Shown: one piece after another, positions 4,052 through 23,826 of the stretch | Layout: every line of letters begins with the position of its first letter | Numbering within the stretch: position 1 is the stretch's first letter | IMG/VR virus record: IMGVR_UViG_3300009537_000169 | Span: 1 to 24,311 of that record | From: a virus | DNA: 24,311 nt | Direction: 5' to 3' (one strand) | Translations under genes and position numbers: made by a program | Notes under the pieces: model-generated | What the model saw: the letters and a program-made list of their open reading frames with translations, nothing else | Database searches by the model: none | Told to the model about the DNA's origin: nothing

Positions 4052-4505
4052 CGAGCACTACCGGGGTTACAGGTTCATTTTCCATTCCTGGTTCATCTAA
4101 CTCGTCGGGCTCTCTACTTGTATCGTAAGTGACAACTTTGACATTGCTGAGTTTTCCTCTGTCATAAGTGCGATATGAGTCCCACTTCTTTATCCATGGC
4201 TTGTCTATATACAACTTGTAAAATTGCTCAGCAGTCATCGAACTTTTCACATCAAACAATGGTAACAACATCCTGCGCGGTAAAAATCGTATGTCAAGAC
4301 CATGCATCTTTCCTTTCCAAAGAGGGTGAGTAATGAATACCCAACGCTCTTCGCCCTTGTAGATAAATGTAATGACTTGACCGCGTTCAAAATCGCTCCC
4401 ATATGGCTTCAGTTTAGTGTCCATGAAGTGTGGGGAGTGCTGAGTGCGGTAGTCATGAAGTTTCCGACTTTCTCTCTGTTTGCTGGGCTTGCTTTCTTTA
4501 GCCAT
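4026..4505 (-). CDS. Phage protein of unknown function
   Basis: This 159-residue protein is not recognised. The N-terminal 30 residues are basic and lysine/serine-rich (AKESKPSKQRESRKLHDYR). Residues 35-85 look like a compact beta domain (QVITFIYKGEERWVFITHPLWKGKMHGLDIRFLPRR), similar in character to SH3-like or PRC-like modules. The C-terminal 35 residues are acidic. Its start overlaps the end of the GC-rich glycosyltransferase gene by 8 bases. The strong charge polarity suggests a nucleic-acid or protein-binding role, but that is inference only. Confidence 0.6.
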   Translation of the reverse strand: MAKESKPSKQRESRKLHDYRTQHSPHFMDTKLKPYGSDFERGQVITFIYKGEERWVFITHPLWKGKMHGLDIRFLPRRMLLPLFDVKSSMTAEQFYKLYIDKPWIKKWDSYRTYDRGKLSNVKVVTYDTSREPDELDEPGMENEPVTPVVLDANILQTK

Positions 4506-5964: not shown

Positions 5965-7319
5965 TACGATTTCTCCATAACAAATCTTGGTGGCCTGTTA
6001 GTCTTATCTTCCCATTTCTCTAATGCAACATCCATTCCATTGATGAAACATTGACCCATGTTGGCTGCTGTGAATCCTTCTTCAATCGCGTACTTACGGC
6101 CCAGCGCTCCGCGTCTGTTCCGTTCTTCGGGAGTCATCTTGTAAAACTCCAAGAGCTTGTCTCCTGCAGTTTTCCAATCACACCGGTCATCAAAAATATA
6201 AGGTGTCTGTGGTGAACCAATCAGCCCGCGTTGTGCGGGAAAAACCGGCAGCACCCACTCACCATGTTTAGTATACTTCTTGACCGCGTTAGTTCCAAAG
6301 TCAGGACCGAAGTGCTTGTCGGGATCAAGATAGACGCCGCTCTTTGTCATGAAACCACACTGGTCTTGCAATCCGCCTGTTACATTGACTACAATCGGGG
6401 TCTCGGCCAAGATTGACTCAAGTGTGCTAATACCGAACCCTTCATTAGATGCAATGTTGATTGTCACATCACCAATGTTATAGAGTAGATTGAGCTGACG
6501 GGGCGCCAATCTATCAGTTGAAAATATCACCTTTATATCTGCTGCGCAATCGCGGATGACCGTGGGCAAATCCGTACCGTTCTCGTCCACAGGCTGCGTG
6601 TGCATGACTAGGCGGCAACGGCTTGCTTGCACGGGAGTAAGTTGCTGCGTGAAGTGCTGGAAAGCCAATATCACATCACCAGGCATCTTGCGTCGTATGT
6701 TGCGGTTATTCCAAAAAACCACAAAGTCTACTTGGTCGTGGCCGAACATTTTCTTTCGCATCTCCACCATTTCCCTCAGTTCCTCCTTAGAGGCAACTTT
6801 CCGAAAAAAATTCTCGTCCATTCCATGAGGAACGTAGCTGATGCGCCAGTCTTCTACTTTACCTTTGTCTTTCCCGTTCTGCCACACTTGTTTGACAATG
6901 TTGTAGGTTTGCTTAGAAATACAACCAATCCAATCACACGACCGATAATAGTTCTGGTTGTATTTCGGATACGGCGTGTCATCCCAAATATGGTAGAAGA
7001 ATATCGGACAATGCTCACGAAGTTCATTCTCCATCTGATATAACCATATCCAAAATCGGGGATCGGTAAAATGAAGGATCGCGTCAGGTTTCTCGTTCAT
7101 TAACAAGTAACGGACTATTTCGGGATTTCCATAGCCTGTGAACGGATAGACGCGAACCTTTGCGTCGGTCAATCCTGTTTCTTGGTTAACCGCATCCGAC
7201 ATGTCGTAGAGCTTCCCTTGTTCGGGATGCTTGACTGCTGCGGCGAGCTGGACCCAGTTGTATCTGTGCGCGGTTTTGCAAACGATCTCTTTGCTCATTA
7301 CACCGACGCCTGAAGTCAT
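5964..7319 (-). CDS. GT-B glycosyltransferase, family 4 type, N-terminus displaced by frameshift
   Basis: The open frame gives 451 residues from an ATG at 7319 (MTSGVGVMSKEIV). Strand DAILHFTDPRFW (79-90), IWDDTPYPKYN (111-121), SYVPHGMDENFF (161-172) and the E-x7-E at 293-301 (EGFGISTLE) identify a GT4-type enzyme. In this family the TSGVG loop is preceded by a first beta strand with a dipeptide of acids. That strand is missing here but is encoded just upstream in another frame (7329-7461, ILLLSDDMR). The 7319 ATG has no SD. So the gene is either frameshifted, recoded, or mis-sequenced by one or a few bases. If it is truly truncated, the Rossmann N-domain lacks strand 1 and activity is doubtful. 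Confidence 0.75.
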   Translation of the reverse strand: MTSGVGVMSKEIVCKTAHRYNWVQLAAAVKHPEQGKLYDMSDAVNQETGLTDAKVRVYPFTGYGNPEIVRYLLMNEKPDAILHFTDPRFWIWLYQMENELREHCPIFFYHIWDDTPYPKYNQNYYRSCDWIGCISKQTYNIVKQVWQNGKDKGKVEDWRISYVPHGMDENFFRKVASKEELREMVEMRKKMFGHDQVDFVVFWNNRNIRRKMPGDVILAFQHFTQQLTPVQASRCRLVMHTQPVDENGTDLPTVIRDCAADIKVIFSTDRLAPRQLNLLYNIGDVTINIASNEGFGISTLESILAETPIVVNVTGGLQDQCGFMTKSGVYLDPDKHFGPDFGTNAVKKYTKHGEWVLPVFPAQRGLIGSPQTPYIFDDRCDWKTAGDKLLEFYKMTPEERNRRGALGRKYAIEEGFTAANMGQCFINGMDVALEKWEDKTNRPPRFVMEKS

Positions 7320-7703: not shown

Positions 7704-7964
7704 TCATCTTCCATAGTAAAATTGCACCGTTAAAATTTGGTTTTCAGGGTCATTCTCTTCCCCGACAATCTTGCCGGGTGCGGCAAACTCAGGCGGAGCA
7801 TCTTCTCTAATCACATCAGCGTGACTACCTGAAAAATGGCCGTCGAGGAATCGCTCAAGAAGTCGTTTGACCACCTTTCCAGCGGGCCAGTGGTTTTCTA
7901 CACACAACTGCTTAAGCCGTGACGCAATTTCTGCATCTACTCTAATTGTTGTTGTTTCGCTCAT
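7704..7964 (-). CDS. Ribbon-helix-helix DNA-binding protein
   Basis: This 86-residue protein begins MSETTTIRVDAEIASRLKQL, the beta strand and first helix of an Arc/CopG/ParD-type ribbon-helix-helix domain. WPAGKVVKRLLERFLDG supplies the second helix (residues about 27-45). The C-terminal 40 residues are acidic and probably flexible. An ATG at 7964 with AAGAG 5 bases upstream is preferred over a GTG two codons earlier. Such proteins dimerise and bind short repeated operators. Three TGTCTA-type repeats lie immediately upstream, so autoregulation is likely. No toxin partner is evident next to it, although the 71-residue downstream protein cannot be excluded. Confidence 0.7.
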   Translation of the reverse strand: MSETTTIRVDAEIASRLKQLCVENHWPAGKVVKRLLERFLDGHFSGSHADVIREDAPPEFAAPGKIVGEENDPENQILTVQFYYGR

Positions 7965-7971
7965 ATCCACT

Positions 7972-8010
7972 CTTGTCTATTGTTTATATGTAATGTCTAC
8001 ACTTGTCTAT
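7972..8010 (-). promoter_or_regulatory. Candidate operator/promoter of the RHH gene
   Basis: Read on the plus strand, CTTGTCTAT occurs at 7972-7980 and again at 8002-8010, exactly 30 bp apart. A related ATGTCTAC lies between them (7992-7999). The core TGTCTA thus recurs at 7974, 7993 and 8004. Short direct repeats spaced by whole helical turns suit a ribbon-helix-helix repressor. A weak minus-strand promoter (TAGACA, 17 bases, TAAACA) overlaps the repeats. Confidence 0.5.
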
Positions 8011-8015
8011 AAGTA

Positions 8016-8474
8016 TCACACGCGCGGCGGATACAACCAAACTTCCTTATCAGGAGCTTTCTTCTGAAATTGGCGAATGATTTCTTTGGACACAGCGTCC
8101 CATTTCAAACCACCTAAACCACACCCAAGTGCTGGTATAGCAACAGAATGAACCTCGTGCTCATCCATTATACGAATAAGCTCCGAGATTCCTTTTCTGA
8201 TGTATTCCATTTTTGACGGATTTTTCCAATGGTCTTTTGTAGGAAGATTGAAAATGTAAAGAACTTCTTTGTAAGTGTCAATGACCCAAACAAACAACTT
8301 TCCCGGCTTCAACTTTTTCTCTTCACACGCCTTCTTGTATTCTTCATTCATATCGGGATAAAACTCAGCAAACTTCTTTGCCAGCCCCTTTCCCATTACT
8401 CCTACGCAGTTAACAGGATTGACGATTGCTTGTGTGTCAGCTTCAAAGATATTTCCTTCTACGAAGCGAATCAT
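8016..8474 (-). CDS. Macro domain protein, DarG-type ADP-ribosylglycohydrolase candidate
   Basis: This 152-residue protein is a single macro domain. NPVNCVGVMGKGLAKKFAEFYP (19-40) is the ADP-ribose-binding loop in the form seen in DarG. PGKLFVW (57-63) and YIFNLPTKDHWKNPS (73-87) follow, and AIPALGCGLGGLKW (112-125) forms the phosphate loop. The lysine in PTKDHW corresponds to the lysine used by DarG antitoxins to remove ADP-ribose from thymidine in DNA, as I recall the literature. The C-terminal DarT-binding domain of DarG is absent and no DarT toxin is adjacent. The start is an ATGA overlap with the upstream gene. A phage-borne DNA de-ADP-ribosylase countering DarT is the leading hypothesis. 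ADP-ribose-1''-phosphate processing is an alternative. Confidence 0.85.
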   Translation of the reverse strand: MIRFVEGNIFEADTQAIVNPVNCVGVMGKGLAKKFAEFYPDMNEEYKKACEEKKLKPGKLFVWVIDTYKEVLYIFNLPTKDHWKNPSKMEYIRKGISELIRIMDEHEVHSVAIPALGCGLGGLKWDAVSKEIIRQFQKKAPDKEVWLYPPRV

Positions 8475-8692
8475 TTTAGCGTCACCCTTTCTATTGGTAT
8501 TCGCACTTTATAGATCCACGGAATATATTCTTCCGTTTCTGGATTCATTACCTCAGAAAGAATTTCTACAATAAGAAAAGTATCTCCGCAGTCTTTAAAT
8601 GGAGCTCTCCTAATAACTGCTTCTTGTTCCCAGGCAGTTCCTTTATCTGAGATACACTTACTGCCCGGACGATACTTCTGCTTCTGTTTCAA
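8471..8692 (-). CDS. Small phage protein of unknown function (TTG start)
   Basis: This 73-residue protein starts with TTG at 8692, and no better start is visible in frame. It overlaps the preceding small gene by 35 bases. The sequence LKQKQKYRPGSKCISDKGTAWEQEAVIRRAPF followed by two strands (DTFLIVEILSE, PWIYKVRIPIERVTL) suggests a small beta-barrel, with no recognisable family. Its TGA forms an ATGA overlap with the macro-domain gene, so the two are translationally coupled. Confidence 0.55.
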   Translation of the reverse strand: MKQKQKYRPGSKCISDKGTAWEQEAVIRRAPFKDCGDTFLIVEILSEVMNPETEEYIPWIYKVRIPIERVTLK

Positions 8693-8810
8693 TCTTGAAA
8701 TCCTCGCTCATTACTGCTTCTGACCCAAGCTTGTTGGTGCACCGGCGAAGCAAATCGGTTTGATCTTCGTCGGTGTCAATAACTTCACCATAGAGAATTG
8801 CCTTATACAT
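8658..8810 (-). CDS. 50-residue phage protein of unknown function
   Basis: The start at 8810 (MYKAILYGEVIDTDED) is supported by a GGAGAAAG site just upstream, inside the end of the MazG-like gene. A longer frame to 8879 would overlap that gene by 77 bases. The product has 50 residues, is acidic and contains no recognisable domain. The first strand (YKAILYGEVI) is followed by a helix (DQTDLLRRCTNKLG). Confidence 0.5.
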   Translation of the reverse strand: MYKAILYGEVIDTDEDQTDLLRRCTNKLGSEAVMSEDFKIETEAEVSSGQ

Positions 8811-9099
8811 CTTCTTTCTCCATTTCACTTTCCATTTCGTCAAGAAATTCTCGTATCTGCTGTTCCGAATGTAAAACATCTTCTGCTGTACGTTGACACA
8901 TTGCTGAAACTTGAACTAATTCTTTCCACAAGCGTTCTGTAACTCGTGCGCCATCCTTGAGAAATACTTCAGCTTTGAATTCTTCCAGTTCTTCGAGAAT
9001 GATTGCATAACCTTCGTGAAGCGAATTAATGTTTGCGTGGAGTTGTCTAGCTCTATCCAATTCTTTTGCTACATCTTCTGTGAAAATATTATCAGTCAT
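8803..9099 (-). CDS. MazG-like NTP pyrophosphohydrolase fold protein
   Basis: This 98-residue all-alpha protein carries HEGYAIILEELEEFKAEVF (residues 28-46), in which EELEE matches the EExxE metal-binding helix of MazG-like enzymes. It is followed by a second helix (RLWKELVQVSAMCQRTAEDVL) that in this family carries an ExxD-type motif. The length fits the small phage MazG-like group. These proteins hydrolyse non-canonical or signalling nucleotides, or alter nucleotide pools. The second acidic pair is not perfect here, so catalysis is uncertain. It overlaps the nuclease stop by 8 bases. Confidence 0.65.
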   Translation of the reverse strand: MTDNIFTEDVAKELDRARQLHANINSLHEGYAIILEELEEFKAEVFLKDGARVTERLWKELVQVSAMCQRTAEDVLHSEQQIREFLDEMESEMEKEDV

Positions 9100-9973
9100 C
9101 CCAAACTCCTTCTGAGCAATGTTCCGTATGATTGTAAGGACAAAAGCGACATGCCGATTTAGATGGCGTCGCGGTCACTTCTATGGTGTGATCAGCATAT
9201 ACCTTTTCTGCTCCGTTTAAGAAACTCTCAAACTCGTTCATAGCCTTCTTGACAGCAGCCGTCTTGTTGGCTGGTACGAAGGAGCTGATGCGGGGAATTG
9301 GATATGGTGATCCCTCAAACAATTTCCTCTTAAGAATCAAAAATTCAACATCAATCCAATCTTCATTAACGTTAAACTTCTCAGAGTAGTAGCGCTTGTA
9401 GATTAGAAGTTGATTTGTCTTTGACTTATCTTTCTTAGCCCACTTGTTCCATCCCTTAGTGGAAGTTTTCAAGTCAACAATCCTGATAAGTCCTGTTAAC
9501 TTGTGGCGTAGGATAATATCCAAATAGCCACGGAAAAGAAGTTTATCTCTGACTTTGAGATTGAGCGGGACTTCTATACCCTCAAGTGTCCACTCTGCAG
9601 TCGGAAAGAATTTCTCGGAGTGCTCTTGAATGTATCTGAGAATATGCTTCCCGTCTTCAAAAAACTCCTTCAGTGTGGGCTTGTCGCACACGAATATTTT
9701 CTGTCCGTTTTCTTCAATGATGCTTTCTTCGAATCTCTTGATCAAATTGGCTTTGAGCACATCTTCTAAATCAACCGTACGAGCCATCACCTTTGACTTG
9801 TTAAACAGAATGTCCAACCAACTTTGAATCGTATCGTGCATTGCTGACCCAAAAACCGCGTGAATGGAATCTTCTCTGGGCAGCACCTTATCTACATAAG
9901 TTAACTTCCATTGAAGTGGGCAGTCTGCCCACATCTTATATTGACTATACGAAACAGTTCTTGTTCTACTCAT
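9092..9973 (-). CDS. PD-(D/E)XK nuclease with Fe-S cluster, Cas4/AddB-like
   Basis: This 293-residue protein has the Cas4/RecB-type nuclease layout. A first cysteine (C18, in ADCPLQWK) and a C-terminal cysteine set CRFCPYNHTEHC (C275, C278, C286) would hold a 4Fe-4S cluster. GSAMHD supplies the active-site histidine H46, GYLD gives D152, DLKTS gives D167 and K169, and QLLIY (188-192) is the QxxxY motif. Cas4-like enzymes are single-strand exonucleases, and phage homologues act in recombination or DNA end processing. No cas1, cas2 or helicase is adjacent, so a CRISPR role is unsupported. The start follows the FlbD-like stop directly (TAGATG). Confidence 0.85.
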   Translation of the reverse strand: MSRTRTVSYSQYKMWADCPLQWKLTYVDKVLPREDSIHAVFGSAMHDTIQSWLDILFNKSKVMARTVDLEDVLKANLIKRFEESIIEENGQKIFVCDKPTLKEFFEDGKHILRYIQEHSEKFFPTAEWTLEGIEVPLNLKVRDKLLFRGYLDIILRHKLTGLIRIVDLKTSTKGWNKWAKKDKSKTNQLLIYKRYYSEKFNVNEDWIDVEFLILKRKLFEGSPYPIPRISSFVPANKTAAVKKAMNEFESFLNGAEKVYADHTIEVTATPSKSACRFCPYNHTEHCSEGVWDD

Positions 9974-10237
9974 CTATTTTGATTTACCAAAGACTATATC
10001 AAAGATACTACGAAGGTCAGAGCTTATTTCTCTAATCATAGAATCTATTTGCTTTGAGGTTTCCCTTACTAACAAAATGGTTTTTCCTCCATGCAAAACA
10101 ACTCTCGTGCAAGGTACACGCTGTTCGCCCGTAGGGCGGGTGGAATCATTATGGTAGTGACCTTCATAATAAGAAATGTAAGACGGATTGACTCGCACAG
10201 GCTGGCCAGCCAATATTGTTAATGTGATAAATTTCAT
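9974..10237 (-). CDS. Small FlbD-like protein
   Basis: This 87-residue protein starts MKFITLTILAGQPVRVNPSYISYYEG and continues with TRVVLHGGKTILLVRETSKQIDSMI. This is the pattern of FlbD-like proteins (short strand, Gly-Gln, VNP, then GG.x.L.VRE and a helix). Phage proteins with this pattern are common and have no assigned function. It is separated from the Mom-like gene by 9 bases and has GAGAGG before its ATG. A link to flagella is not implied. Confidence in the fold relation is moderate. Confidence 0.6.
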   Translation of the reverse strand: MKFITLTILAGQPVRVNPSYISYYEGHYHNDSTRPTGEQRVPCTRVVLHGGKTILLVRETSKQIDSMIREISSDLRSIFDIVFGKSK

Positions 10238-10246
10238 ACGGCCTCT

Positions 10247-11074
10247 CTAAATATTGAAGAATTCCTTTGACTTTTCATAAGTCCAGACTTTTCGCTCGTT
10301 GCGCTGGAAAGTTCTATTGCTCTCACTTGTAATTGTTGGGTCATAATTGATTGATGAACAGGGTTTCCACCCACCCGCATTCAAGTCTCTAATTTTCCAC
10401 TCTAAGTCTTTGCTTTTCGGATACTCGATGTTCCATTCTACTGATGACTCTTTGAGTAATCTTCGTTTTTCTCTTTTGTCGCATAGGAATTGTAGGTATC
10501 TGAATTGCTTTCCTTTATAGTGGTTCCACCCAAACTCTTTCAATTGCTGACGCGTGGGCCGGTGTCCATACTTCGCTTGCTTCTTCTGATGCCTGCTTGT
10601 AATTCCTTGGGCACTGCGTGGATGAATACGTTCACCCTCTTCCGACATATACAAGTCAGTCCAAATGTAACCTCCATAGAGGAAGTTGGCTGACTGATAA
10701 ACATAACCAGGCTTTCCAAGAGTGCCATCGGCCCAAGTAAACAGCAGCTTCTTATCGGGCTTATTTTGCTTCAGCCACCGGATTGTTCTGCTCAGAAAGA
10801 CTGACTCGGAGTTTTTCGGCATATCTTCGTGCATACACATTTTGCCAATTTCATAGTAATCTTTTGCTGTAAGCGAGGGGAATAGGACTCTAATAGTATG
10901 CAGTGGTCGGACGCCCCATCCCAATGTAATCACCCCAACAAGCTCGTCATCAATAAATCCACCAAGATACACTTCGGTCAGCCGTGGCATGATTTTGCTA
11001 TAATGAAAACTGAATACAAGAGAGAGTGCTTCTACTTTGTCAATCTCTCTCACTTCCAGCGTTGTTATCTTCAT
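10247..11074 (-). CDS. Mom-like GNAT-fold DNA modification protein candidate
   Basis: The most sensible start is MKITTLEVREID at 11074, giving 275 residues. Upstream in-frame codons overlap the previous gene further and add a low-quality basic leader. HYSKIMPRLTEVYLGGFIDDELVGVITLGWG (about 21-51) and DYYEIGKMCMHEDMPKNSESVFLSRTIRWLKQ form the GNAT-like core. LLFTWADGTLGKPGYVYQSANFLYGG (about 118-143) matches the D..G..G..Y..ANF.Y.G signature of Mom-family proteins. Mom of phage Mu converts adenine in DNA to a carbamoylmethyl-type modified base that resists restriction. The C-terminal 100 residues are basic and may bind DNA. The regulator Com is not recognisable nearby. SD for this start is weak; a 35-base overlap suggests coupling. 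Confidence 0.75.
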   Translation of the reverse strand: MKITTLEVREIDKVEALSLVFSFHYSKIMPRLTEVYLGGFIDDELVGVITLGWGVRPLHTIRVLFPSLTAKDYYEIGKMCMHEDMPKNSESVFLSRTIRWLKQNKPDKKLLFTWADGTLGKPGYVYQSANFLYGGYIWTDLYMSEEGERIHPRSAQGITSRHQKKQAKYGHRPTRQQLKEFGWNHYKGKQFRYLQFLCDKREKRRLLKESSVEWNIEYPKSKDLEWKIRDLNAGGWKPCSSINYDPTITSESNRTFQRNERKVWTYEKSKEFFNI

Positions 11075-11354
11075 CTTGAACCGAAGCTTTCGCAGTAATT
11101 TGCTTAGGAATGACTTCTTCCCAAGCAGGTTCCCACTCCATCCTAAGTGTACCATATTTGTTGACTGCTTCCTGTAATCCATGAGGAGTGGTGCTTCTCA
11201 AAACTCTCAGCCCCTCACTCCCATCTTTGTTTTTGTGGAGTTTGGCATCCACCATTCCCTCCCAAACCAAACCTTCGCTTTTTGCATACGCTTTGAGCCA
11301 GTAGCTATAATATTCTAATGAGCCTACGCCTATAGCAACTTTATACTCTCCCAT
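11040..11354 (-). CDS. Phage protein of unknown function
   Basis: This 104-residue protein begins MGEYKVAIGVGSLEYYSYWLKAYAKSEGLVW and ends in an acidic tail. No family is recognised. It overlaps the cupin gene by 14 bases and the Mom-like gene by 35 bases, so it sits physically between them. The high aromatic content (Y, W) and the repeated pattern of basic-acidic residues suggest a small globular protein. A Com-like zinc regulator is not supported, because it has no cysteine. Confidence 0.5.
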   Translation of the reverse strand: MGEYKVAIGVGSLEYYSYWLKAYAKSEGLVWEGMVDAKLHKNKDGSEGLRVLRSTTPHGLQEAVNKYGTLRMEWEPAWEEVIPKQITAKASVQDEDNNAGSERD

Positions 11355-11670
11355 AGCGGTCTTCTAATCTGCATTCATCATTGGTGTGTTGGGTAGAAAC
11401 TTCCATGAGTTTTACATCAGTGATGGCAACGAATCGGTGGTGATCTTCGGGAATAATGTGCACTGTGTCGCCGGGTTTCATGATTTTCAATTTACCATTG
11501 TGCAGCAATTCCATTTCACCTTCCATAATCAACACATTTTCGTGTCGCAAATTGTGGTAGTGAACAGAAGTTTCTTCACCCTTTTTGATATACATTATCT
11601 TGGCAATGTACCAAGGCGTGTGAGCCCAAACCATTTCATAGCCCCAAGGCTTATTTGTTCGTATGTTCAT
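11341..11670 (-). CDS. ManC-type cupin (sugar phosphate isomerase-like)
   Basis: This 109-residue single cupin domain starts MNIRTNKPWGYEMVWA and carries KKGEETSVHYHNLRHENVLIMEGE, in which HYH and a later Glu are metal ligands. PGDTVHIIPEDHHRF follows, and it ends with RLEDRYGR. KPWG near the start and DxxRLEDRYGR near the end are the hallmarks of mannose-6-phosphate isomerase type II / ManC cupins. It lacks the nucleotidyltransferase half of ManC. It may supply an activated or isomerised sugar for the glycosyltransferases or for DNA modification. It overlaps the upstream gene by an ATGA. Confidence 0.75.
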   Translation of the reverse strand: MNIRTNKPWGYEMVWAHTPWYIAKIMYIKKGEETSVHYHNLRHENVLIMEGEMELLHNGKLKIMKPGDTVHIIPEDHHRFVAITDVKLMEVSTQHTNDECRLEDRYGRV

Positions 11671-12044
11671 TCTTTTGGCAGCCTATATAGAAAGTCAATT
11701 CCACTTTGAAGATTAATAAAATATACATCGGCAAGCCATTCAAATAATCGTAGGTAGCGAAAGCGATCGCTGGTGGTGGGAATTTCATCTACAAAAATGA
11801 CGCCTTTTCCAAGTCCCTTTCCATATCCCATTTCTCCACACAAACCATAGCCGCTTGGATTACATTCCTCAAAGTAAGAAAACATCCAATCACATTTCCT
11901 TATCATTCCAAAATCCCAAGCACTATATTGAGTCCACTTAGATAAGTTATGATCTCTTGGGTCATAGTAAATGTGATGCGGAACGGATTGGCGAACAATA
12001 TCCTGCCAACCACTTCGCATGCCGCCTGCTAAATATATTCTCAT
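11667..12044 (-). CDS. Nucleoside 2-deoxyribosyltransferase-like protein
   Basis: This 125-residue protein begins MRIYLAGGMRSGWQD, the first strand and nucleotide loop of nucleoside 2-deoxyribosyltransferase-like proteins. DWMFSYFEECNPSGYGLCGEMGYGKGLGKGVIFVDE (residues about 52-87) contains the conserved Gly-x-x-x-Glu helix with the candidate nucleophile Glu in CGEMGYG. Related proteins exchange bases on deoxynucleosides or cleave nucleotides, and phages use them in pool remodelling. The start is ATGA-coupled to the gp62-like gene. The substrate cannot be read here. Confidence 0.75.
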   Translation of the reverse strand: MRIYLAGGMRSGWQDIVRQSVPHHIYYDPRDHNLSKWTQYSAWDFGMIRKCDWMFSYFEECNPSGYGLCGEMGYGKGLGKGVIFVDEIPTTSDRFRYLRLFEWLADVYFINLQSGIDFLYRLPKE

Positions 12045-12484
12045 TTGGTTGCTCTCTTCACTTTTTTGGGATCAGTTCCATACATTTCAAGTATGCGCTT
12101 CAACCCATCCTTGCCGTCAACCGTAGACATATACAAGTCGAGATAATCTTTTGCTTCAGTCTTACTAACACAGAAATGGTGTGCCACCAACTCTACAATC
12201 CACTCTTCATGTTTTGATTCCTGTTTTGCTTTAACGTACTTGTTCCATTGCTTTCGTCGTGGAAGCATTTGACTATAAAACAAGTATGATTCTCGTGCAG
12301 TTAATGATTCATATAACTTCTGAAACTCATTAACCAACTCAACATAATCCATATTCATGCTGATCAGACGATTGATCATATACACGTTATAGGACTTTTG
12401 GTCTGCTGGACCAAGATCGTCCCAATAGTCTATTTGCTGATTGGTATAAACCGCATTAAGGTGCTGAAAAAGAGTTTTAGTCAT
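12041..12484 (-). CDS. Clamp-loader small subunit, gp62-like
   Basis: The best start is at 12484 (MTKTLFQHLN), an ATGA overlap with the lipoprotein stop and an AAAGAG-type SD. Two upstream in-frame ATGs (12520, 12535) would overlap the lipoprotein by 40-55 bases. The 147-residue product has the core MLPRRKQWNKYVKAKQESKHEEWIVELVAHHFCVSKTEAKDYLDLY (about 73-118), which follows the pattern of the T4 clamp-loader small subunit (VPRGKRYGKWAK, then LLAKRYQVN.NDA..Y). It would pair with the ATPase at 15048-15968 to load the clamp. The position in the same operon as gp44-like and gp45-like genes supports this. It is shorter than T4 gp62 (187 residues). Confidence 0.75.
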   Translation of the reverse strand: MTKTLFQHLNAVYTNQQIDYWDDLGPADQKSYNVYMINRLISMNMDYVELVNEFQKLYESLTARESYLFYSQMLPRRKQWNKYVKAKQESKHEEWIVELVAHHFCVSKTEAKDYLDLYMSTVDGKDGLKRILEMYGTDPKKVKRATK

Positions 12485-12918
12485 TCTACTCTTTCTAATA
12501 TAATTGGAGTAGCGTACCATTTGAGTTTTGTCCAAAACTCTATAACTTCGTAGCGAGCTTCAAAGTTTTCATAATAGTTGCTATCAGGATATGTGTAGTG
12601 CATCGTTGCTGTTAAATTGATTGCATTGCCAAGAACGGTGTAATAACAAACCCCTTTCGTGTTTCCGTACAACCAATCACTGCCGTCAAGCCTATCATAA
12701 CGAACGATTACTTGACATGCAGGATGACCATATAAATCCAACCGTGTAAACACTAATGCATGAGTGCTATCTCTAAATTGAACATTAGTCGTGTCGCTTA
12801 TATAGGTTCCCACCCAAGGCTGAGATGGAGGCCCATGAACAGTTGAAGGTGGTTCTGCTGGCTCCAGGCCACAGGCGGCTAGAAGCAAAACGAATACTAG
12901 AGATGCTTTAATCATCAT
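12481..12918 (-). CDS. Putative lipoprotein
   Basis: This 145-residue protein has a signal peptide: MMIKASLVFVLLLAACGLEP, with a hydrophobic stretch and lipobox L-A-A-C at residue 16. A Pro-rich linker follows (residues 20-35), then a beta-rich domain with three further cysteines or aromatic clusters (VWTYIS-type, YYENFEARY). It is probably lipidated and anchored in the host envelope after infection. Its function is unknown. Phage lipoproteins are sometimes superinfection-exclusion proteins, but this one is not identifiable as such. It ends in the ATGA shared with the gp62-like gene. A GGAAGAG lies upstream of the start. Confidence 0.65.
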   Translation of the reverse strand: MMIKASLVFVLLLAACGLEPAEPPSTVHGPPSQPWVGTYISDTTNVQFRDSTHALVFTRLDLYGHPACQVIVRYDRLDGSDWLYGNTKGVCYYTVLGNAINLTATMHYTYPDSNYYENFEARYEVIEFWTKLKWYATPIILERVE

Positions 12919-14806: not shown

Positions 14807-15051
14807 TTTATTTTATTGCTCCCATTTTGTAGGCTATCTCTTACAGCCAGTTGTTCCTCTGCAACATCGAATGCTTCTGCAATTTTAATAGCTTCGTCTT
14901 GTGTATATTCCTTTGGTAATACTATTGATTTGCATGCTACTTTAAGTGACCACCATAAAAGTTTGCCAGTGTTGCCGGATTCCGCCCTATTTAACCACAC
15001 TATATCTCCATGCCAAACAAGGTGGTAACTTGTGTAATCGTTAGTGTTCAT
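14803..15051 (-). CDS. Phage protein of unknown function
   Basis: This 82-residue protein is not recognised. It begins MNTNDYTSYHLVWHGDIVWLNRAESGNTGKLLWWSL, rich in aromatic residues, and ends in a helix (DEAIKIAEAFDVAEEQLAVRD). Its start is an ATGA overlap with the clamp-loader stop, so it is probably coupled to it. No motif supports a function. Confidence 0.5.
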   Translation of the reverse strand: MNTNDYTSYHLVWHGDIVWLNRAESGNTGKLLWWSLKVACKSIVLPKEYTQDEAIKIAEAFDVAEEQLAVRDSLQNGSNKIK

Positions 15052-15968
15052 TTCTGCAACCTCAATACATTAATAATGGTAGCCATAGCGTTAATTTCAT
15101 GATCGACAACCAACGCATCATTAACCTGTCCGTCTGCTATTGCCAGTATGGTTGCTGAAATATTGTTTGGGCTGATTTGCTCAACCTTATCAAACAAAAG
15201 GCGATAGAAAGGTGTAAAGTCTCTCACTCTTGAGTCGGCCAAAATTTGTCGTATCTCTTGAAACTTTGCTTTTGCGGGTGACGCACTTGTTAGCACTTGA
15301 ATGATGTGCGTCTTATAGTCGCTCTCTGCTATCTCCCGTGCCTCAACATCCAGGATTCCGTTTTTGGAGTGACTCTGGCAATCGTTGATGATTTGACGCA
15401 AATCGGGGTAGTGAGCGTCTACGAGCAATGCTAAGTCTTTGGGAGTAAACTTGACGCCCTCCTTCTCAAGTATCTTGGCGACGTGTAGTGCAGCGTCCTT
15501 GCGTGACGGTGGTACGATCTCAAAGACTTGACACCGGCTGATGAGCGGTTGGATCACGCGGTCACGATAGTTCGCCGTCAGAATGAAGCGACAAGTCTTG
15601 CTGAACTGTTCCATCAGGTTGCGTAGTGCTGCCTGACCCTGTGGTGTCACGAAGTCTGCTTCGTCCAACACCGCGACCTTGAGCGACCTGAAGCCGAGGC
15701 CGCTAGCGAAGCCCTTGAGCTTGTTGCGAATCGTGTCAACGCTGTTCTCGTCAGACGCATTGATGAAGAGCGAGTCGCAGTCAATCGTGTTGACTATGAT
15801 TTTGGCTGCGGTCGTCTTGCCAGTGCCCGCGGGCCCATAGAGAAGCAAGTGTGGAATGTCGCCTTCGGCGAGCCAGCCCTCTAGCTTCTCTACGAAATGC
15901 TTGTTGCCAATGTAGTCTTTCGTGGATGCTGGCCTATATTTTTCGCACCATAGATAGTGCTCATTCAT
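15048..15968 (-). CDS. Clamp-loader ATPase subunit, gp44/RFC-small type
   Basis: This 306-residue AAA+ protein starts MNEHYLWCEKYRPASTKDYIG, the RFC-type box with W-x-x-KYRP. GPAGTGKT (45-52) is Walker A, VAVLDEADF (98-106) Walker B with a DEAD box, LTANYRDR (130-137) sensor 1 and ISRC (143-146) the arginine-finger SRC motif. These are the signatures of clamp-loader ATPases. The length is close to T4 gp44 (319 residues). With the gp62-like protein it would load the clamp at 19920-20642 onto primer-template DNA. The DNA between about 15500 and 15900 is more GC-rich than its neighbours. Confidence 0.92.
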   Translation of the reverse strand: MNEHYLWCEKYRPASTKDYIGNKHFVEKLEGWLAEGDIPHLLLYGPAGTGKTTAAKIIVNTIDCDSLFINASDENSVDTIRNKLKGFASGLGFRSLKVAVLDEADFVTPQGQAALRNLMEQFSKTCRFILTANYRDRVIQPLISRCQVFEIVPPSRKDAALHVAKILEKEGVKFTPKDLALLVDAHYPDLRQIINDCQSHSKNGILDVEAREIAESDYKTHIIQVLTSASPAKAKFQEIRQILADSRVRDFTPFYRLLFDKVEQISPNNISATILAIADGQVNDALVVDHEINAMATIINVLRLQK

Positions 15969-17200: not shown

Positions 17201-18556
17201 CTATATCCCCCGAATTTCATATCTGTTTTTTGTTAGTTTAATGTTGGGATCTGACCGTAGCATGTTTCTATAAGGACTCCATAGTATGCTAACTCCCCAA
17301 TCCATATACTTCAGAATATCCAATTTAGATACACTGCCTCTTCTCTCAATGAGTCGAAGAATGTCCATATATTTTTCGGTGCGCTTCCGGAGAGTATATC
17401 TATCTAAGTTGAATACTTTGTTCCAACCACCGAACCATTGTTCAATCTCAGAATTCCACATCATATCGGGAACGCTTTGCTTAAGTGATTCAAATGCTTT
17501 CTGTCGCTCCACACTTCCATCTAACAACTCCAGAAACTTTCTTTCAAATTCTACCTTGTTTGAATACAGCAGCGGATAGTCAGTCCTCACCATTTCTGGA
17601 TAACAAAGATGATTTGGTAAAAGGTAAGGAGTTCCTCTACTCAATCCGTCCGTAGTTGAGATGCTCCATGCGGAATACTTTTCAAAACAACCGACGCCGA
17701 AATGCATTCCTTGTAAGAAGTCAAGATAGTCAGCGCGAGTTGGCAAATTATGATTTTGACACCACGGCTTCTTGACAGTAGCAAGAGTAGTATGAACAGT
17801 GAAATCTTGCCGCTTGAGCCAAAGCTTGTCCATCAGAGCCACGAACCAATTCCAGCCGGTGTATTCGTTTGGTCTGTGATTGAAAACAACGTGAGAGTGT
17901 GCCTCGTCTGGCCTGAGCGAAAGATTATGACTATCAATTCCAAGATAATGAGGCTGAATTGTTTTGTCCAGTTGAGCAATCACATCTTTACTCACCATTT
18001 TTTTGAATCGCTCGAGAATGAATTGTTTCAACCATTCACTATTGACGCCGCACTCTTCCATTTCCAACAGCCCGGCCAAATTGGCCCACAACATATTCTT
18101 TTCGTAAGCGGTATTCTCCGGAACTTCAAACCAATGACAATAACCTACAAACTTGGGTGTGAGATTTGTGCTGTTGTAAAACACGTTAGCGAGTTGGGCA
18201 GTGTGTTCTGGAAGATGACTATAAACAATATCGTAATCTTCATTGTGCCAATCTACTACACTCAAAATTCTGCCGACGTCGAAGTGAATGCGCATTGTAT
18301 TCGGGTAAGACGGAAGCGACAAAATTCTCTGCTCAACATTGGGCAAGCTGAGGCTGTTTATTACTCGGGGCACCAGCAAAATCCAATAAACTTCCGGTTG
18401 TGCCTCAATCAAATACTTTAGAACATTTCGTATGACCACAACATACGAATCTCTCTCTAAATCTTCCTGATAAGTGATATTAGGATAGACGAGAACTCTA
18501 TATTTATACTCTTTTTGTGGCGTTGGGTCAACAAGCCACTGGCTAATATCGCTCAT
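17201..18556 (-). CDS. GT-B glycosyltransferase fused to a predicted winged helix-turn-helix
   Basis: This 451-residue protein combines two parts. Residues about 15-385 form a GT-B enzyme: the N-domain has YDIVYSHLPEHTAQL (108-122), the linker reaches VVFNHRPNEYTGWNWF (223-238), and the C-domain has WSISTTDGLSRGTPYLLPNH (297-316), where the DGLSRGTP loop would hold the nucleotide sugar. Residues about 393-451 (TEKYMDILRLIERRGSVSKLDILKYMDWG, then a strand pair) read as a winged helix domain. A GT with a DNA-binding end suggests it acts on DNA, as T-even phage DNA glucosyltransferases do, but no signature of those enzymes is present. It is ATGA-coupled to the DUF4338 gene. A protein or tRNA target is an alternative. 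Confidence 0.7.
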   Translation of the reverse strand: MSDISQWLVDPTPQKEYKYRVLVYPNITYQEDLERDSYVVVIRNVLKYLIEAQPEVYWILLVPRVINSLSLPNVEQRILSLPSYPNTMRIHFDVGRILSVVDWHNEDYDIVYSHLPEHTAQLANVFYNSTNLTPKFVGYCHWFEVPENTAYEKNMLWANLAGLLEMEECGVNSEWLKQFILERFKKMVSKDVIAQLDKTIQPHYLGIDSHNLSLRPDEAHSHVVFNHRPNEYTGWNWFVALMDKLWLKRQDFTVHTTLATVKKPWCQNHNLPTRADYLDFLQGMHFGVGCFEKYSAWSISTTDGLSRGTPYLLPNHLCYPEMVRTDYPLLYSNKVEFERKFLELLDGSVERQKAFESLKQSVPDMMWNSEIEQWFGGWNKVFNLDRYTLRKRTEKYMDILRLIERRGSVSKLDILKYMDWGVSILWSPYRNMLRSDPNIKLTKNRYEIRGI

Positions 18557-19743
18557 CTACCAACATCCGTTAGATAAAGGTCTCGGGCGTGTTCCCAAGA
18601 CACCCCAATCAAATCGTTGTAATACAACACCTCTGGCTTGAGTCTCTGTTCTGCGTGAAGTTTCTTATAGCGATTGACTGCTTTTTCAATCCACCAATTA
18701 TATACACCTTCCGGCCCCTTCATTCGGGGATGTAGAATCAACTCTTCTTGTGGTATCTCTCCGCGCATGTATTCACGACCATTTTGGTATCTCATGCAAT
18801 AATAGACGCCGCGCTTGAAACCGTGTGTATAGAGGCTTGCTTTTATGCCCGATGTTTGGAAGATCATATCCATAATCTTTTGTTTGATTCCAGTAATGGG
18901 GCCGACAATATCTTCTTTGACTGTTGCCTTAATGTAGGCATCCTTCTTGTTCTCTTTCAACCAGTGATGCCACTCTTTATACACAAAATCGTCCGGCTTC
19001 AGATAGATTTTGCCTTGAGTGGCTCCCAGTTTCTTCCACCACGGCATGCTGTTATACATTGATTCTGTGCCATAGAGGCTGGTTGTGGTCAGTCCGACAA
19101 GCTTGTGGTCTGTTGCCTGTTCCCATGCGTCTGCCACAGGGTCATCCGTCATCAGAGCTGCTACAAGCTTACCGCCGAGAAAGTTGTAGCCGAGAGGCTG
19201 GCATGCCATGATGCAGGTGGCGATTGTTGAGTTGTTCAATCGGCCCGACTTCACTCTTTGGTCAAAACTCCACCCTATCCATTGGTCTCTGACGCGAATG
19301 CTTATAACATCACTTCCAATTGAACCACAGCCGAGATACTTCTCAGTAACATCATCATAAACTATAAAACGAAGGAAACGACCTGGGTTCTGCTCAAATG
19401 CCATTGTGTGACAGAATATTCTTAACATCAACCAATCGTCCATGAGCCGATTGTCTGTGTCTGGATTGACATAACAGATGCGTGGACGCAAATCACGAAG
19501 CTCTTGCTCCGTTTGTTCTACATTCCTTATATCTGTCGGGACCCATATCTTTGCTTTCACCACTTCCGACCGATTAATCAATCGTTGATAATCTTGAGCT
19601 TCTTTCCATTTTTTGTATAAAGTGTGCTCATACACATCCTGTTGTTTGAGCATTTCCATGTGGGAACGAAATTTCTCCCGCAGCGTATCTACGGTGGTAG
19701 GTTCCAAATCAAAAAACTGACTTGGAAGGAAGTCATTAGGCAT
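18553..19743 (-). CDS. DUF4338 protein, DruA-like
   Basis: This 396-residue protein carries the core of DUF4338, the domain of DruA from the Druantia anti-phage system. It reads FLRFIVYDDVTEKYLGCGSIGSDVISIRVRDQWIGWSFDQR (123-163), then PLGYNFLGGKLVAALMTDDPVADAWE (183-208), then KLVGLTTTSLYGTESMYNSMPWWKKLG (214-240). The domain's biochemistry is not established, as far as I know. The N-terminal 80 residues and the C-terminal 140 residues are extra. It lies between the clamp and the winged-helix glycosyltransferase and overlaps both neighbours, so it belongs to the phage early operon and is not an isolated defence gene. The other Druantia components are not seen. A DNA-modifying role parallel to the Mom-like protein is an inference. 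Confidence 0.75.
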   Translation of the reverse strand: MPNDFLPSQFFDLEPTTVDTLREKFRSHMEMLKQQDVYEHTLYKKWKEAQDYQRLINRSEVVKAKIWVPTDIRNVEQTEQELRDLRPRICYVNPDTDNRLMDDWLMLRIFCHTMAFEQNPGRFLRFIVYDDVTEKYLGCGSIGSDVISIRVRDQWIGWSFDQRVKSGRLNNSTIATCIMACQPLGYNFLGGKLVAALMTDDPVADAWEQATDHKLVGLTTTSLYGTESMYNSMPWWKKLGATQGKIYLKPDDFVYKEWHHWLKENKKDAYIKATVKEDIVGPITGIKQKIMDMIFQTSGIKASLYTHGFKRGVYYCMRYQNGREYMRGEIPQEELILHPRMKGPEGVYNWWIEKAVNRYKKLHAEQRLKPEVLYYNDLIGVSWEHARDLYLTDVGR

Positions 19744-19909
19744 CTTCGTTGTGATGTTCTCTAAGATGTGCCTTATAATGCTCAGCTAAACTCTTGAACT
19801 CCTCAGCTAAATGAATGTGTCGTTTAACCCAATGGTTGTGTCTATCAATCAATTGATAAATCTTATAACTGAAAAGTAGGATAGCTAATATGAAAATTAT
19901 TTCCCACAT
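19736..19909 (-). CDS. Small single-pass membrane protein
   Basis: The start at 19909 (MWEIIFILAI) has AGGAGAG 5-6 bases upstream, in the gap after the clamp gene. A longer frame to 19984 would overlap the clamp gene. The 57-residue product has a hydrophobic helix (residues 2-16), then a histidine-rich basic helix (DRHNHWVKRHIHLAEEFKSLAEHYKAHLREHH). It is a membrane-anchored protein with its C-terminus on the cytoplasmic or periplasmic side (not determinable). Function unknown. It overlaps the DUF4338 gene by 8 bases. Confidence 0.6.
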   Translation of the reverse strand: MWEIIFILAILLFSYKIYQLIDRHNHWVKRHIHLAEEFKSLAEHYKAHLREHHNEDA

Positions 19910-19919
19910 GATCTCTCCT

Positions 19920-20642
19920 TTATGACAGTTTGATCTCAACCAAATAATACTCCACGGTGAAGCCGTCAATATCAAACGACACATGCGATAGTCCCTTTTC
20001 AGAAACTTTCATTGTGCCGCCGCGGGCTTCTTTATTGGCTAAGAGAATGTCTTTTAGGTATCGTGCCGAAAAACTAACCGCTCTGTTTAAGCGATCACCA
20101 TTTGACAAGTCAACTGTAAATGCGATGCGGTTGGTATTTTGTGTTGCGGAATAACCAAGAACGATTTGTGTCTTATTGTCTTCCGTTAAGACCGTAAAAG
20201 TCTCTACATCAGGAAGTGCATTCTTGCCCTTGACGAAAGTGTTCATAAACTTGTTGTCAAGTGTTACCTCAATTGCAAACTCAGGAAGTGCTTTCACATC
20301 AGGCACTGCTGGAATGACGCTTGGTTCGGCCAGAACGAATGTCACCTTCGTTGCGGCATCACGCAATCCAAGTGACTTTGCGCTGTCATTCTTCTTATTG
20401 ACCGTAACTTGTATGTCGTCATCCAAAACACCGAGTTCTCCGCGGAGCGTTGCCGTGTCAAAGATGGCGTACTCACCCTTCTCAAATCCTGCGTCAGTCG
20501 TACTTACTATTCCTAACACATTCTTGTCGTCAGAAATGAAACGGGTTTTCAAGAGCTTCTTGTCAGTAGTCCAAATGACGGATTCTGCTGCTCCGCCAAG
20601 ATTATACTTGGCAATAAATCTCTCAAGAATTGATTTTTGCAT
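19920..20642 (-). CDS. Sliding clamp, gp45-like
   Basis: This 240-residue protein fits the T4 gp45 class of trimeric clamps in length (228 residues in T4) and layout. The N-terminus is helical, then YAIFDTATLRGELGVLDDDIQVTV (about 77-100) matches the first clamp repeat, and RIAFTVDLSNGDRLNRAVSFSARYLKDILLANKEARGGTMKVSEKGLSHVSF (172-223) the second. The product would encircle DNA and tether the polymerase and late transcription factors. An AGAGG lies 5-6 bases before the ATG and a promoter candidate upstream of it. It lies between the polymerase and the DUF4338 gene. Confidence 0.88.
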   Translation of the reverse strand: MQKSILERFIAKYNLGGAAESVIWTTDKKLLKTRFISDDKNVLGIVSTTDAGFEKGEYAIFDTATLRGELGVLDDDIQVTVNKKNDSAKSLGLRDAATKVTFVLAEPSVIPAVPDVKALPEFAIEVTLDNKFMNTFVKGKNALPDVETFTVLTEDNKTQIVLGYSATQNTNRIAFTVDLSNGDRLNRAVSFSARYLKDILLANKEARGGTMKVSEKGLSHVSFDIDGFTVEYYLVEIKLS

Positions 20643-21303: not shown

Positions 21304-23826
21304 CTAAAATGAGAAAAATTCCCTTGCCATTTGATTTACTTCGGTGGGTATCTTTCCCCATCCCAGCGCAGCGTAGAAGTCTTGTAGTTTGTGAGCAAAT
21401 TCTTTCTCAAATAGCTTGCGATAGTCAATGTATTCCTTCACCAACTTTGCTACTTCAGGCGGATCAGTATCGTCACCAATAAACGCTACTGCTTCAACTT
21501 TGTAGGGGTTGTCTTTTAGATAAACCCATTTGATTTTCGTGCCGTCAGAAATAGTACGATACCTTCTATGAATATTCAAATGTCTCAACAGAACATTGTA
21601 GTTAAGAGCTGCCTTGACGTGAGCGGGCGCTCCAAGTTGATAATCACCAAGTTGTTGGTTTGTCTTTTCCCACTTGCTGATATTCTTTACTGCTGTATTG
21701 CGGGCAACATCAGGAATAGGCATTGATGGTAGTTTGTTTCTGAAGGAGATTATTTTGGCGTCCAATTCATCTTTCGGAGTGTGGTCAAGAATGTTGCTAA
21801 GCACTTCCTTCATAAACTTGCGAAAAGCCGCAGGAAAGCTTGACCGCACTACGTCCAACCCTTTGACAGCAACTTTGTTTACCTCTTGGTCTGTTTCTAA
21901 ATCATAGACCTTGCGCATCGCGTAGCGCTTCTTGTTAACCCAAAACGCAGAGCTTGCCACGCTCTCCCCTTTAATAACAAACCGATGTTTTCCTTGAATA
22001 AAGAACATTCTCTGAGCCATCGCATCATAAAAGTTGTTCAAATGAGATTCCATTGTGCGGGCCAATTCAATTGTAGCTTTCTTCATATCAGTTGACGAAC
22101 ACAAAGGAACTGCGGAGAAGTAAACAGAATCGGTATCAATGTAAATACAATAATCTTCGTTGTCTGCTAATTCGTCGTTATATTTGCTGTTCACATATTT
22201 AGCAGATGTTTTAATCACATCTTGGCCACTGGCAGTAACCGCCAGTGCGTTGTCCAAGTCGTAAAAACGAAACACGGGCAAACCCAACACACCATATAAT
22301 GAGTTGAGGAAAATCTTCTGGATATGTTGACGCATGTTCCAGTAATCTTCTTGCTCTTTGTTTCCGCTCTGGGCGGCTTCCTTCATCTTATCTTTGTATT
22401 CTACTCGTTCCGCAAACCATTTGTCGAGTATCTCTGCCAACAATCCAGTTCGGTCGGTGCGATAGATGATTCCGTTGGATGAAAGTGTAAATGCACCGTC
22501 CTGCATGAATTGAACAAAGCTCTCACGATTGAGGTTGGTTTTCTTGTTATCACTGTCTTCCACAACATAAGTTTCAATGTTGTTTTGAAAGTGCTGTTCA
22601 ATGTCCCAATTGACCACTCTGCCCGCTTTTGTTTCAGGTGAGATATTGAGACTCATAATGAGCGATGGATATAGAGATTGTAGGTCTAACGAAAATACCC
22701 ATTCATGCCGACCAATTTTTGGTGCTTTCACAAACGCTCCGACAAACCCCACTTGGCCGCCGTCTAATGCTTCCATCTTCTCTTTTGCGCCCGCGGGCTT
22801 GTTGGGCGCAATAATTCCCTTGCGATGTAGGTCGGTAATAAGCGCACCTTCCAGCCATCTGCTTGAATGGTCGTAATCTTCATACGGGACATGACCGAGC
22901 GTGCAAATACCGCGGACCAACTCAATCAATTTCATCTTACTATCTAACTTGTCTACTATATGCACGTCACGCAAGTTGTATTCAACAAATGTCTCAATGT
23001 CACTTTCAAACAAGTCATCAAGAGTTCCCTCAAATTCTACCTTTCCCAAGCTAACTTCAATCTTACCGATAGTGTCAAGACGATAGTTTGGCTGTTCCGT
23101 GTAAGTGAATTTTTTGTATAAGTCAAGGTAGTCTAATGCTGATATGCCCGCGATACGGTACATATTCTTGCGGTCACTCCATTTGATGATATGAATGGGA
23201 CTGAGCCGCAAAGCTTCATCCTCTCCCAGGATGTTGCTTATTCTTCTGAACAAATAAGGAATGTCAAAGTAGTCAATGTTCCAACCACTGACTATTGTTG
23301 GATTGATTTCTTCCCAAGTGTTTAGGAAGTCTGACAGAAGCTCTTCTTCCGTTCTGGCGTTATAGATGGTGAGCCCTTCTACATCAGTTTTGTAATCATC
23401 CAGCTGGCCATCAGGATCAAGAATAAACACATACTCTTCATTTGTAGTTTTATCTTTAAGAGCGACCGAAGTGACTTCACGGTCAGCAGTTTGTGTGTTT
23501 GGAAGACCGGTGCGGGAATCTACCTCAATGTCAAGCAAAAGAATTTTATGTCCCTTGGATGCTTCATCTGACTCTAAATACAGATCAGTCAGCACCCGCG
23601 TTTCTTTTGGCAGGTCTGACTCCAAAATGTGTGCGTCATCCTTTTTCCAGCGTCTTACTTTCTTGACTTTCTGCCCATGTAAAGACAAAGTGCTTCCCTG
23701 CTTGTCTATGCGATAAGCATAGTCAAAGTCGTTATACGGGAAGCACGCGTAACCTTCCTGGTCGTCCCAAAGGTGAACCTGGAAGGTTCTGTCTTTTACA
23801 TGTTCTATAAAGATGCTCTGATACAT
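21304..23826 (-). CDS. Family B DNA polymerase, T4 gp43-like
   Basis: This 840-residue protein has all the landmarks. LLLDIEVDS (96-104) is Exo I, VSGWNIDYFDIPYL (179-192) Exo II and YNLRDVHIVDKL (283-294) Exo III. SLDLQSLYPSLIMS (379-392) is motif A, KIFLNSLYGVLG (504-515) motif B, YIDTDSVYF (562-570) motif C, and NKKRYAMR (631-638) the KKRY segment. Proofreading and polymerisation are therefore both intact. It is slightly shorter than T4 gp43 (898 residues). The C-terminal tail QMAREFFSF resembles the hydrophobic clamp-binding tails of T4-type polymerases. The start uses an AGGAG with a short spacer. It replicates the phage genome with the clamp and loader in this window. Confidence 0.97.
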   Translation of the reverse strand: MYQSIFIEHVKDRTFQVHLWDDQEGYACFPYNDFDYAYRIDKQGSTLSLHGQKVKKVRRWKKDDAHILESDLPKETRVLTDLYLESDEASKGHKILLLDIEVDSRTGLPNTQTADREVTSVALKDKTTNEEYVFILDPDGQLDDYKTDVEGLTIYNARTEEELLSDFLNTWEEINPTIVSGWNIDYFDIPYLFRRISNILGEDEALRLSPIHIIKWSDRKNMYRIAGISALDYLDLYKKFTYTEQPNYRLDTIGKIEVSLGKVEFEGTLDDLFESDIETFVEYNLRDVHIVDKLDSKMKLIELVRGICTLGHVPYEDYDHSSRWLEGALITDLHRKGIIAPNKPAGAKEKMEALDGGQVGFVGAFVKAPKIGRHEWVFSLDLQSLYPSLIMSLNISPETKAGRVVNWDIEQHFQNNIETYVVEDSDNKKTNLNRESFVQFMQDGAFTLSSNGIIYRTDRTGLLAEILDKWFAERVEYKDKMKEAAQSGNKEQEDYWNMRQHIQKIFLNSLYGVLGLPVFRFYDLDNALAVTASGQDVIKTSAKYVNSKYNDELADNEDYCIYIDTDSVYFSAVPLCSSTDMKKATIELARTMESHLNNFYDAMAQRMFFIQGKHRFVIKGESVASSAFWVNKKRYAMRKVYDLETDQEVNKVAVKGLDVVRSSFPAAFRKFMKEVLSNILDHTPKDELDAKIISFRNKLPSMPIPDVARNTAVKNISKWEKTNQQLGDYQLGAPAHVKAALNYNVLLRHLNIHRRYRTISDGTKIKWVYLKDNPYKVEAVAFIGDDTDPPEVAKLVKEYIDYRKLFEKEFAHKLQDFYAALGWGKIPTEVNQMAREFFSF

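Follow-up and report, generated by a model that had tools for sequence, protein, structure and literature searches.

The overlapping genes and their surroundings

The replication region of a 24-kb virus fragment, IMG/VR record IMGVR_UViG_3300009537_000169 (analysed at its full length of 24,311 nucleotides and hereafter called the window), carries two overlapping genes on its minus strand, one encoding a 396 amino acid (aa) DruA-like protein of the DUF4338 family (DruA; 18553-19743) and the other a 451 aa glycosyltransferase (GT; 17201-18556). As a preliminary description of this DNA had claimed, both open reading frames (ORFs) are present and are coupled by an ATGA overlap (18553-18556), the stop codon of DruA lying under the start codon of GT.

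The remainder of the region is also read from the minus strand. It runs from a family B DNA polymerase (21304-23826; Pfam E=5.4e-42) through the upstream gene of the operon, a gp45-like sliding clamp (19920-20642; PHROG 223, E=3.3e-9), a listed ORF of 82 aa with no function assigned (19736-19984), DruA, GT, and small ORFs to the gp44-like large subunit of the clamp loader (15048-15968; 36% identical to clamp-loader-type genes at related loci), its gp62-like small subunit (12041-12535; Pfam Phage_clamp_A, 7.9e-9), and an independent modification gene encoding a Mom-family DNA modification enzyme (10247-11182; Pfam Mom, 9.8e-48; PHROG 1384, 1.3e-39). The pair had been described as directly downstream of the clamp; the clamp neighbourhood is correct, but the 82 aa ORF separates the clamp from DruA.

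DruA is predicted to be a GNAT-fold transferase

Membership of the window DruA in DUF4338 is clear from Pfam (PF14236, E=2.3e-25; score 89.8 bits, gathering cut-off 27), and the protein also matches the PADLOC model DruA1 (2.5e-23) and PHROG 19197 (function not assigned). Its AlphaFold2 model, built from an alignment of 71 DruA relatives, has a mean predicted local distance difference test (pLDDT) score of 91. GNAT acyltransferases make up nearly all of its nearest PDB folds, though with weak matches (E>=0.012). On the basis of this model DruA is predicted to be a GNAT-fold transferase, and an earlier paper (PMC10853773) likewise assigns DUF4338 to the GNAT fold, as the GNAT domain of DndF. 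Conserved residues occur in the motif QPLGYNFLGGKL (residues 182-193) and in TTSLYG (residues 220-225). Within the former, the pattern Q182-P-x-G185-x-N187-x-x-G190-G191-K192-L193 is invariant in the DruA alignment and, in our own reading, resembles the GNAT pyrophosphate loop. Membership of DruA in the Mom family was considered and rejected, with an hhalign probability of 1% and no Pfam Mom match.

The C-terminal end of DruA (window 18553-18564) is a near-invariant V/I-G-R with the terminal R present in 70 of 71 sequences, a degree of conservation seldom met at the end of a protein. The giant viruses Faunusvirus, Yasminevirus, and Dasosvirus have proteins whose folds strongly resemble that of DruA (BFVD, E 1e-17 to 1e-7), and one locus (L018:5977-8233) holds two tandem DruA-like genes, 46% and 38% identical to that of the window, with no GT beside them. 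The use of DUF4338 by a phage had been singled out as notable in the preliminary description. Such use has been reported before: DruA-like proteins in Synechococcus phages were already known via Phold (PMC12774648). The GNAT fold, too, had already been proposed.

A GT4-like glycosyltransferase with a predicted winged helix

The GT is divergent in sequence. Its sole Pfam match is Glyco_transf_4 at E=0.024, no match to the T4 alpha-GT or beta-GT families (PF11440 and PF09198) was found in Pfam up to E=1, and a sequence search of solved structures gave no real match for either GT or DruA. The AlphaFold2 model of the GT (64 relatives in the input alignment; mean pLDDT 91.1, predicted template modelling score 0.89) retrieved 269 PDB matches of the GT-B/GT4 fold with Foldseek at E<=0.001, headed by SenB, a mannosyltransferase, MshA, and BshA (E 2.6e-12 to 1e-10 for SenB, MshA, and BshA). 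By its modelled fold, the product of 17201-18556 is a predicted GT-B/GT4-like glycosyltransferase, in agreement with its earlier description. Foldseek also matched the model to 9IR0, a glycosyltransferase of phage HY126. Residues N226-H227-R228, R249, D303, G308, and P310 are invariant in the 64-member alignment, and we read D303 as standing at the place of the second acidic residue of the GT4 EX7E motif. The conservation of a further motif, VYPNITY, was left out of the evidence because it stems partly from the search patterns used.

A winged helix had been claimed for the C-terminus of the GT (residues 393-451; window 17204-17380), and structure prediction gives one with confidence. DSSP assigns three helices (394-406, 411-418, and 427-434) followed by a two-strand wing (439-441 and 446-448) in the model, an HHH-EE arrangement with a pLDDT of about 92-97 that is less at the very end. 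The region is present in 64 of 64 aligned GT relatives, and its residues K411 and R430 are invariant or nearly so.

The two genes are conserved as a pair

A tblastn search with the GT against 50,697 phage records found no relative, even a threshold of E=10 yielding short chance matches only, and DruA-like genes occur in 31 of the same 50,697 records. Single-sequence searches in IMG/VR for relatives of GT or DruA returned nothing; finding them required profile queries. The first GT relative in that database, L029, was met among DruA loci and has GT and DruA adjacent in reversed order (GT-DruA). With L029 as the second sequence of a profile, 140 GT relatives were retrieved and 80 were kept as a first set; a query from a divergent sub-clade retrieved 247, of which 80 were kept as a second set, seven loci being common to both. 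GT relatives in IMG/VR thus number in the hundreds.

More than 90% of the GT relatives for which 3 kb or more of flank is available adjoin a DruA gene. In the first set, 31 GT loci extend 3 kb or more upstream, and 30 of them have DruA there; on the 69-kb contig of the lone exception, L128, DruA is located elsewhere. In the second set, DruA is present at 25 of the 28 GT loci with enough flank. All 57 DruA ORFs of the first set are on the GT strand, and the two genes nearly always share a strand when both sets are taken together. Of 68 pairs in the second set (one large clade), 54 show the same overlap as the window, precisely 4 bp. The pairwise identities of DruA and GT correlate (r=0.92 over 88 loci), which is what co-inheritance would give. 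Many uncultured marine phages carry the two genes as a fixed unit. The preliminary description had read joint function from the coupling of the two genes and had looked to conserved DUF4338-GT adjacency in other phages; these counts support both well, and we consider a joint function of DruA and GT close to certain. A literature search on DUF4338 and on DruA with glycosyltransferase, with most subscription papers outside its scope, found no account of the pair, and the conserved pair, its contexts, and its nuclease slot appear to be new.

A variable slot between DruA and GT

The slot in question lies between the two genes and is a feature of another clade of the pair. It is empty in the window, in 15 pairs of the first set, and in 57 directly adjacent pairs of the second, while one or more slot genes occur in 40 of 55 first-set pairs and in 10 of the second set, several of the latter ParB- or GmrSD-like (partly by eye). 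Family matches of slot genes include Mom (1.2e-38), TAGT (7e-10), a PLOD glycosyltransferase (2.9e-29), an endonuclease VII-like protein (1.6e-7), GmrSD_N with HNH (2.7e-11 and 3.5e-11; for example at L140), and ParB-like nucleases (PHROG ParB matches down to 1.2e-10). In L130 (6090-8001), a D12 adenine methylase (1.3e-21) sits beside an EcoRI-like endonuclease (5e-11), an apparent complete restriction-modification system, and the slots of L131 and L109 hold N6_N4 methylases. In profile comparisons, slot clusters c26 (96.7%) and c81 (98.8%) match the GmrSD-HNH group, and c46 matches c54 (97.1%). One of several slot proteins of 600-750 aa that lack a family match, that of L162, has a DGxHR-like motif of GmrSD proteins.

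Gene contexts of the pair

The pair is kept in about eight gene contexts. A large clade has it within the clamp-loader operon (gp45-gp44-DruA-GT-gp62-RegA); elsewhere it lies between polymerase and UvsX (pol-DruA-GT-UvsX), in a PhoH/HD region, with RNA ligase-NAD genes, on the clamp side as in the window, in a polymerase-Mom region, reversed by a methylase-like gene, or beside a second GT-like gene (L253, L262, and a contig of a Saprospiraceae metagenome-assembled genome, MAG). Another order among the relatives is DruA-slot-GT-HD. A 165-kb relative, G001, has a window-like order of polymerase, clamp, clamp loader, gp62, and PD-(D/E)XK genes, with Mom between the clamp and the clamp loader and again after gp62, and DruA-slot-GT elsewhere; its gene assignments come from sequence reading together with matches to Mom and to window genes. 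The site that DruA-GT occupies in the window therefore holds a DNA-modification gene in a relative.

A bacterial contig (L264, Acidiferrobacteraceae MAG) has at 7962-11344 a GT facing a 621 aa protein with a ParB-like N-terminal part and a DruA C-terminus; the arrangement may be a bacterial defence locus or what is left of a prophage. Several further observations were made along these contigs. G001 apparently has at least three Mom genes (contig 129723, 132167, and 163260) and encodes a 912 aa protein reading as an outer-membrane protein of the carboxypeptidase-regulatory/TonB-receptor type (L184:9599-12337), and in L029 (8306-11192) DNA polymerase B is seemingly split into two ORFs with a 76 aa ORF between them. 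In the same region as the pair, the window itself encodes a macro-domain protein (8016-8474; 7.9e-21) and, with a match of 4.7e-5 that is below cut-off, a nucleoside 2-deoxyribosyltransferase-like protein (11667-12044).

Dependence between the two genes is one-sided

DruA often occurs without this GT, and the GT rarely without DruA. Among 96 DruA loci, L029 is the only one with this GT in the DNA examined. Cyanophages carry DruA alone, near regA, between gp44 and gp62, the gap that the pair uses elsewhere, and pelagiphages carry it by gp46/gp47 and a peptidase. Since these cyanophages have no GT, we rejected their DruA as evidence for the pair. A literature search on whether cyanophage DNA resists restriction turned up nothing usable. 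At L096 (7654-8472), L087 (5780-6067), and about 40 related DruA loci, many of them on pelagiphage-like contigs, the genes downstream of DruA encode an HTH_39 winged-helix protein and what may be a GT-A enzyme (Anp1 match weak; PHROG 1574, function not assigned), which might represent the pairing in an unrelated form.

The clearest group with GT and without DruA comprises L173, L242, L243, L245, and L248, on whose fragments (up to 31 kb) DruA was not found. These have a DNA methylase-like protein (N6_N4_Mtase, 3.8e-7) and/or a pyridoxal-phosphate (PLP) enzyme (PALP, 7.8e-9), then GT, then TAGT-type genes. A GT accompanied by methylase-like or PLP genes in place of DruA is to be expected if DruA supplies a group for GT and can be replaced by another base-modifying set.

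A proposed DNA-modification pathway and its rivals

We lean, with limited assurance, towards the pair being a phage DNA-hypermodification unit that performs two steps of one pathway beside the replisome. The reading is drawn from the site in the replisome operon, the Mom gene at the equivalent place in a relative, and the modification enzymes and nucleases in the slot. DNA is the probable target, and the idea that DruA primes for GT is put forward tentatively, as one that could readily prove wrong. DruA, as a GNAT-type transferase that is Mom-like in general terms, would attach or expose a small group on a base; the winged helix would place GT on DNA; and GT would move a sugar from a nucleotide sugar onto the group made by DruA, with both steps near the replication fork. 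In many relatives, the slot nuclease could then serve as a restriction arm against host or competing-phage DNA that has no mark or has a rival one. No thymidylate synthase/hydroxymethylase (PF00303) was found in 18 contigs, mostly fragments, in a search whose controls worked, and a standard hydroxymethylated base is not evident as the acceptor. That the pair installs or extends a modified base, as the preliminary description had suggested, is still the best reading, one taken from gene context. The genes, their strict pairing, their predicted folds, and their contexts are established; we infer DNA as the substrate, the order of DruA then GT, the sugar and the base involved, the chemistry, and a part for the nuclease in telling self from non-self.

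Several points weigh against a hypermodification unit. Because most carriers of the pair are T4-like marine phages related to one another, many of the pair counts are not independent and are inflated by relatedness. Most contigs are fragments. The GNAT match of DruA to solved structures is weak (E>0.01), and DruA is not Mom-like by profile (1%). Pfam-supported modification genes occur in only some slots, several slot proteins of 600-750 aa having no family match, and a search of these mostly fragmentary contigs for TET/JBP (PF12851), in which the control was also silent, gave no match and so lacks a positive control. Finally, cultured cyanophages and pelagiphages, among them Synechococcus phages S-SSM7 and S-PRM1 and Pelagibacter phages Mosig and HTVC008M, carry DruA without this GT, and therefore DruA must have some role independent of GT.

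Two alternatives deserve most attention, and we think both improbable. In the first, an anti-defence role that the preliminary description had also raised, DruA and GT are an anti-defence or host-takeover pair that modifies a protein, such as a nuclease, a component of Druantia, or the RNA polymerase of the host, with the winged helix serving only to bring the enzyme to its target. The name DruA comes from a defence system, there are phage GNATs with host proteins as substrates (PMC7824862), and cyanophage DruA lies near regA; against this, the genes that recur beside the pair encode DNA-modification enzymes and DNA nucleases rather than protein modifiers, and it is Mom that stands at the equivalent replisome place in G001. 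In the second, a phage-borne conflict element has the slot nuclease (type IV or homing-like) as its weapon and owes its specificity or immunity to the pair; DruA and GT would mark self DNA only locally or would be sensors, bulk phage DNA not being hypermodified. The frequency of slot genes in the first set, many of them nucleases, the ParB-nuclease and GmrSD types being conflict nucleases, and the bacterial MAG with GT beside a ParB-DruA fusion all suit such an element. The second set, however, has 57 pairs without a slot gene against 10 with one, and the window has none, from which it follows that the pair works without a nuclease between its genes.

Modification of RNA or of the nucleotide pool, that is, of tRNA or of deoxynucleotides before incorporation rather than of polymerised DNA, strikes us as more doubtful again. 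tRNA is among the substrates of GNAT and GT enzymes, and deoxynucleotide monophosphate kinase and dGTP-diphosphohydrolase-like genes lie near DruA in other phages, but the conserved winged helix of the GT and the co-location with the clamp and clamp loader suit polymerised DNA better. An ordinary polysaccharide glycosyltransferase lying beside DruA by chance, which the GT4 fold and the separate glycan-type cluster of the window (914-7319) might suggest, is very hard to credit given a pairing that recurs in about eight contexts with 4-bp overlaps and a cluster that is located elsewhere and has different GT families.

If the hypermodification reading is true, abundant marine phages have a new base-modification pathway, the restriction-type nucleases between the two genes have a reason to be there, and there is a hint of DNA marking by type I Druantia. 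The papers found give no reaction for DruA, and its function becomes directly testable because it has a conserved partner whose activity, the transfer of a sugar to DNA, can be guessed. A bolder form, which we hold to be rather unlikely as a whole, is that DruA founds a new base chemistry: a GNAT-type transferase would build, at the fork, a non-hydroxymethyl acceptor on a base of duplex DNA, which the GT4 enzyme with its winged helix would then glycosylate; type I Druantia would use a related DruA mark to tell self from non-self; and marine phages would carry full modification-restriction islands, with exchangeable nucleases between DruA and GT.

Comparison with known systems

The Synechococcus phage DruA-like proteins (PMC12774648) and the DUF4338 domain of DndF (PMC10853773) share the domain of the window protein, and the cyanophage genes lie in the same gp44-gp62 gap; the accessible parts of these two papers describe neither a GT partner nor a nuclease slot. 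The DruA of type I Druantia, a system classed as methylation-dependent in a 2026 review (PMC12904381), shares the Pfam family and the PADLOC model. The partner here is instead a GT and the owner a phage. The locus does not qualify as a type I system on the genes recognised: no DruBCDE genes were seen near the pair, in a window that is a fragment and of which not every ORF was scanned with PADLOC; there is no DruE-sized helicase in the window, as its largest ORF encodes the 840 aa polymerase.

The T-even glucosylation of 5-hydroxymethylcytosine (alpha-GT, beta-GT, and TAGT) similarly involves a phage GT-B enzyme, as we propose here for decorating DNA by the replisome, and TAGT adjoins the DruA-GT pair in some relatives. 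In T4, alpha-GT copurifies with the clamp gp45, and the share of alpha-glucosylation is set mostly by expression level and not by clamp binding (PMC13216743). Unlike the T-even system, the pair has no thymidylate-synthase-type hydroxymethylase in the 18 contigs, the window GT falls outside the AGT and BGT Pfam families and bears a winged helix, and DruA is its near-obligatory neighbour.

Jumbo phages encode Mom with linked restriction-fold domains, which has been interpreted as modification coupled with attack on host or superinfecting DNA (PMC7824862). As in those modules, a GNAT-fold marker enzyme would be combined here with a linked nuclease predicted to act on unmarked DNA, and Mom itself occurs in the slots of the pair. 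The difference is that DruA forms a separate family (1% in profile comparison) and that its partner is a glycosyltransferase.
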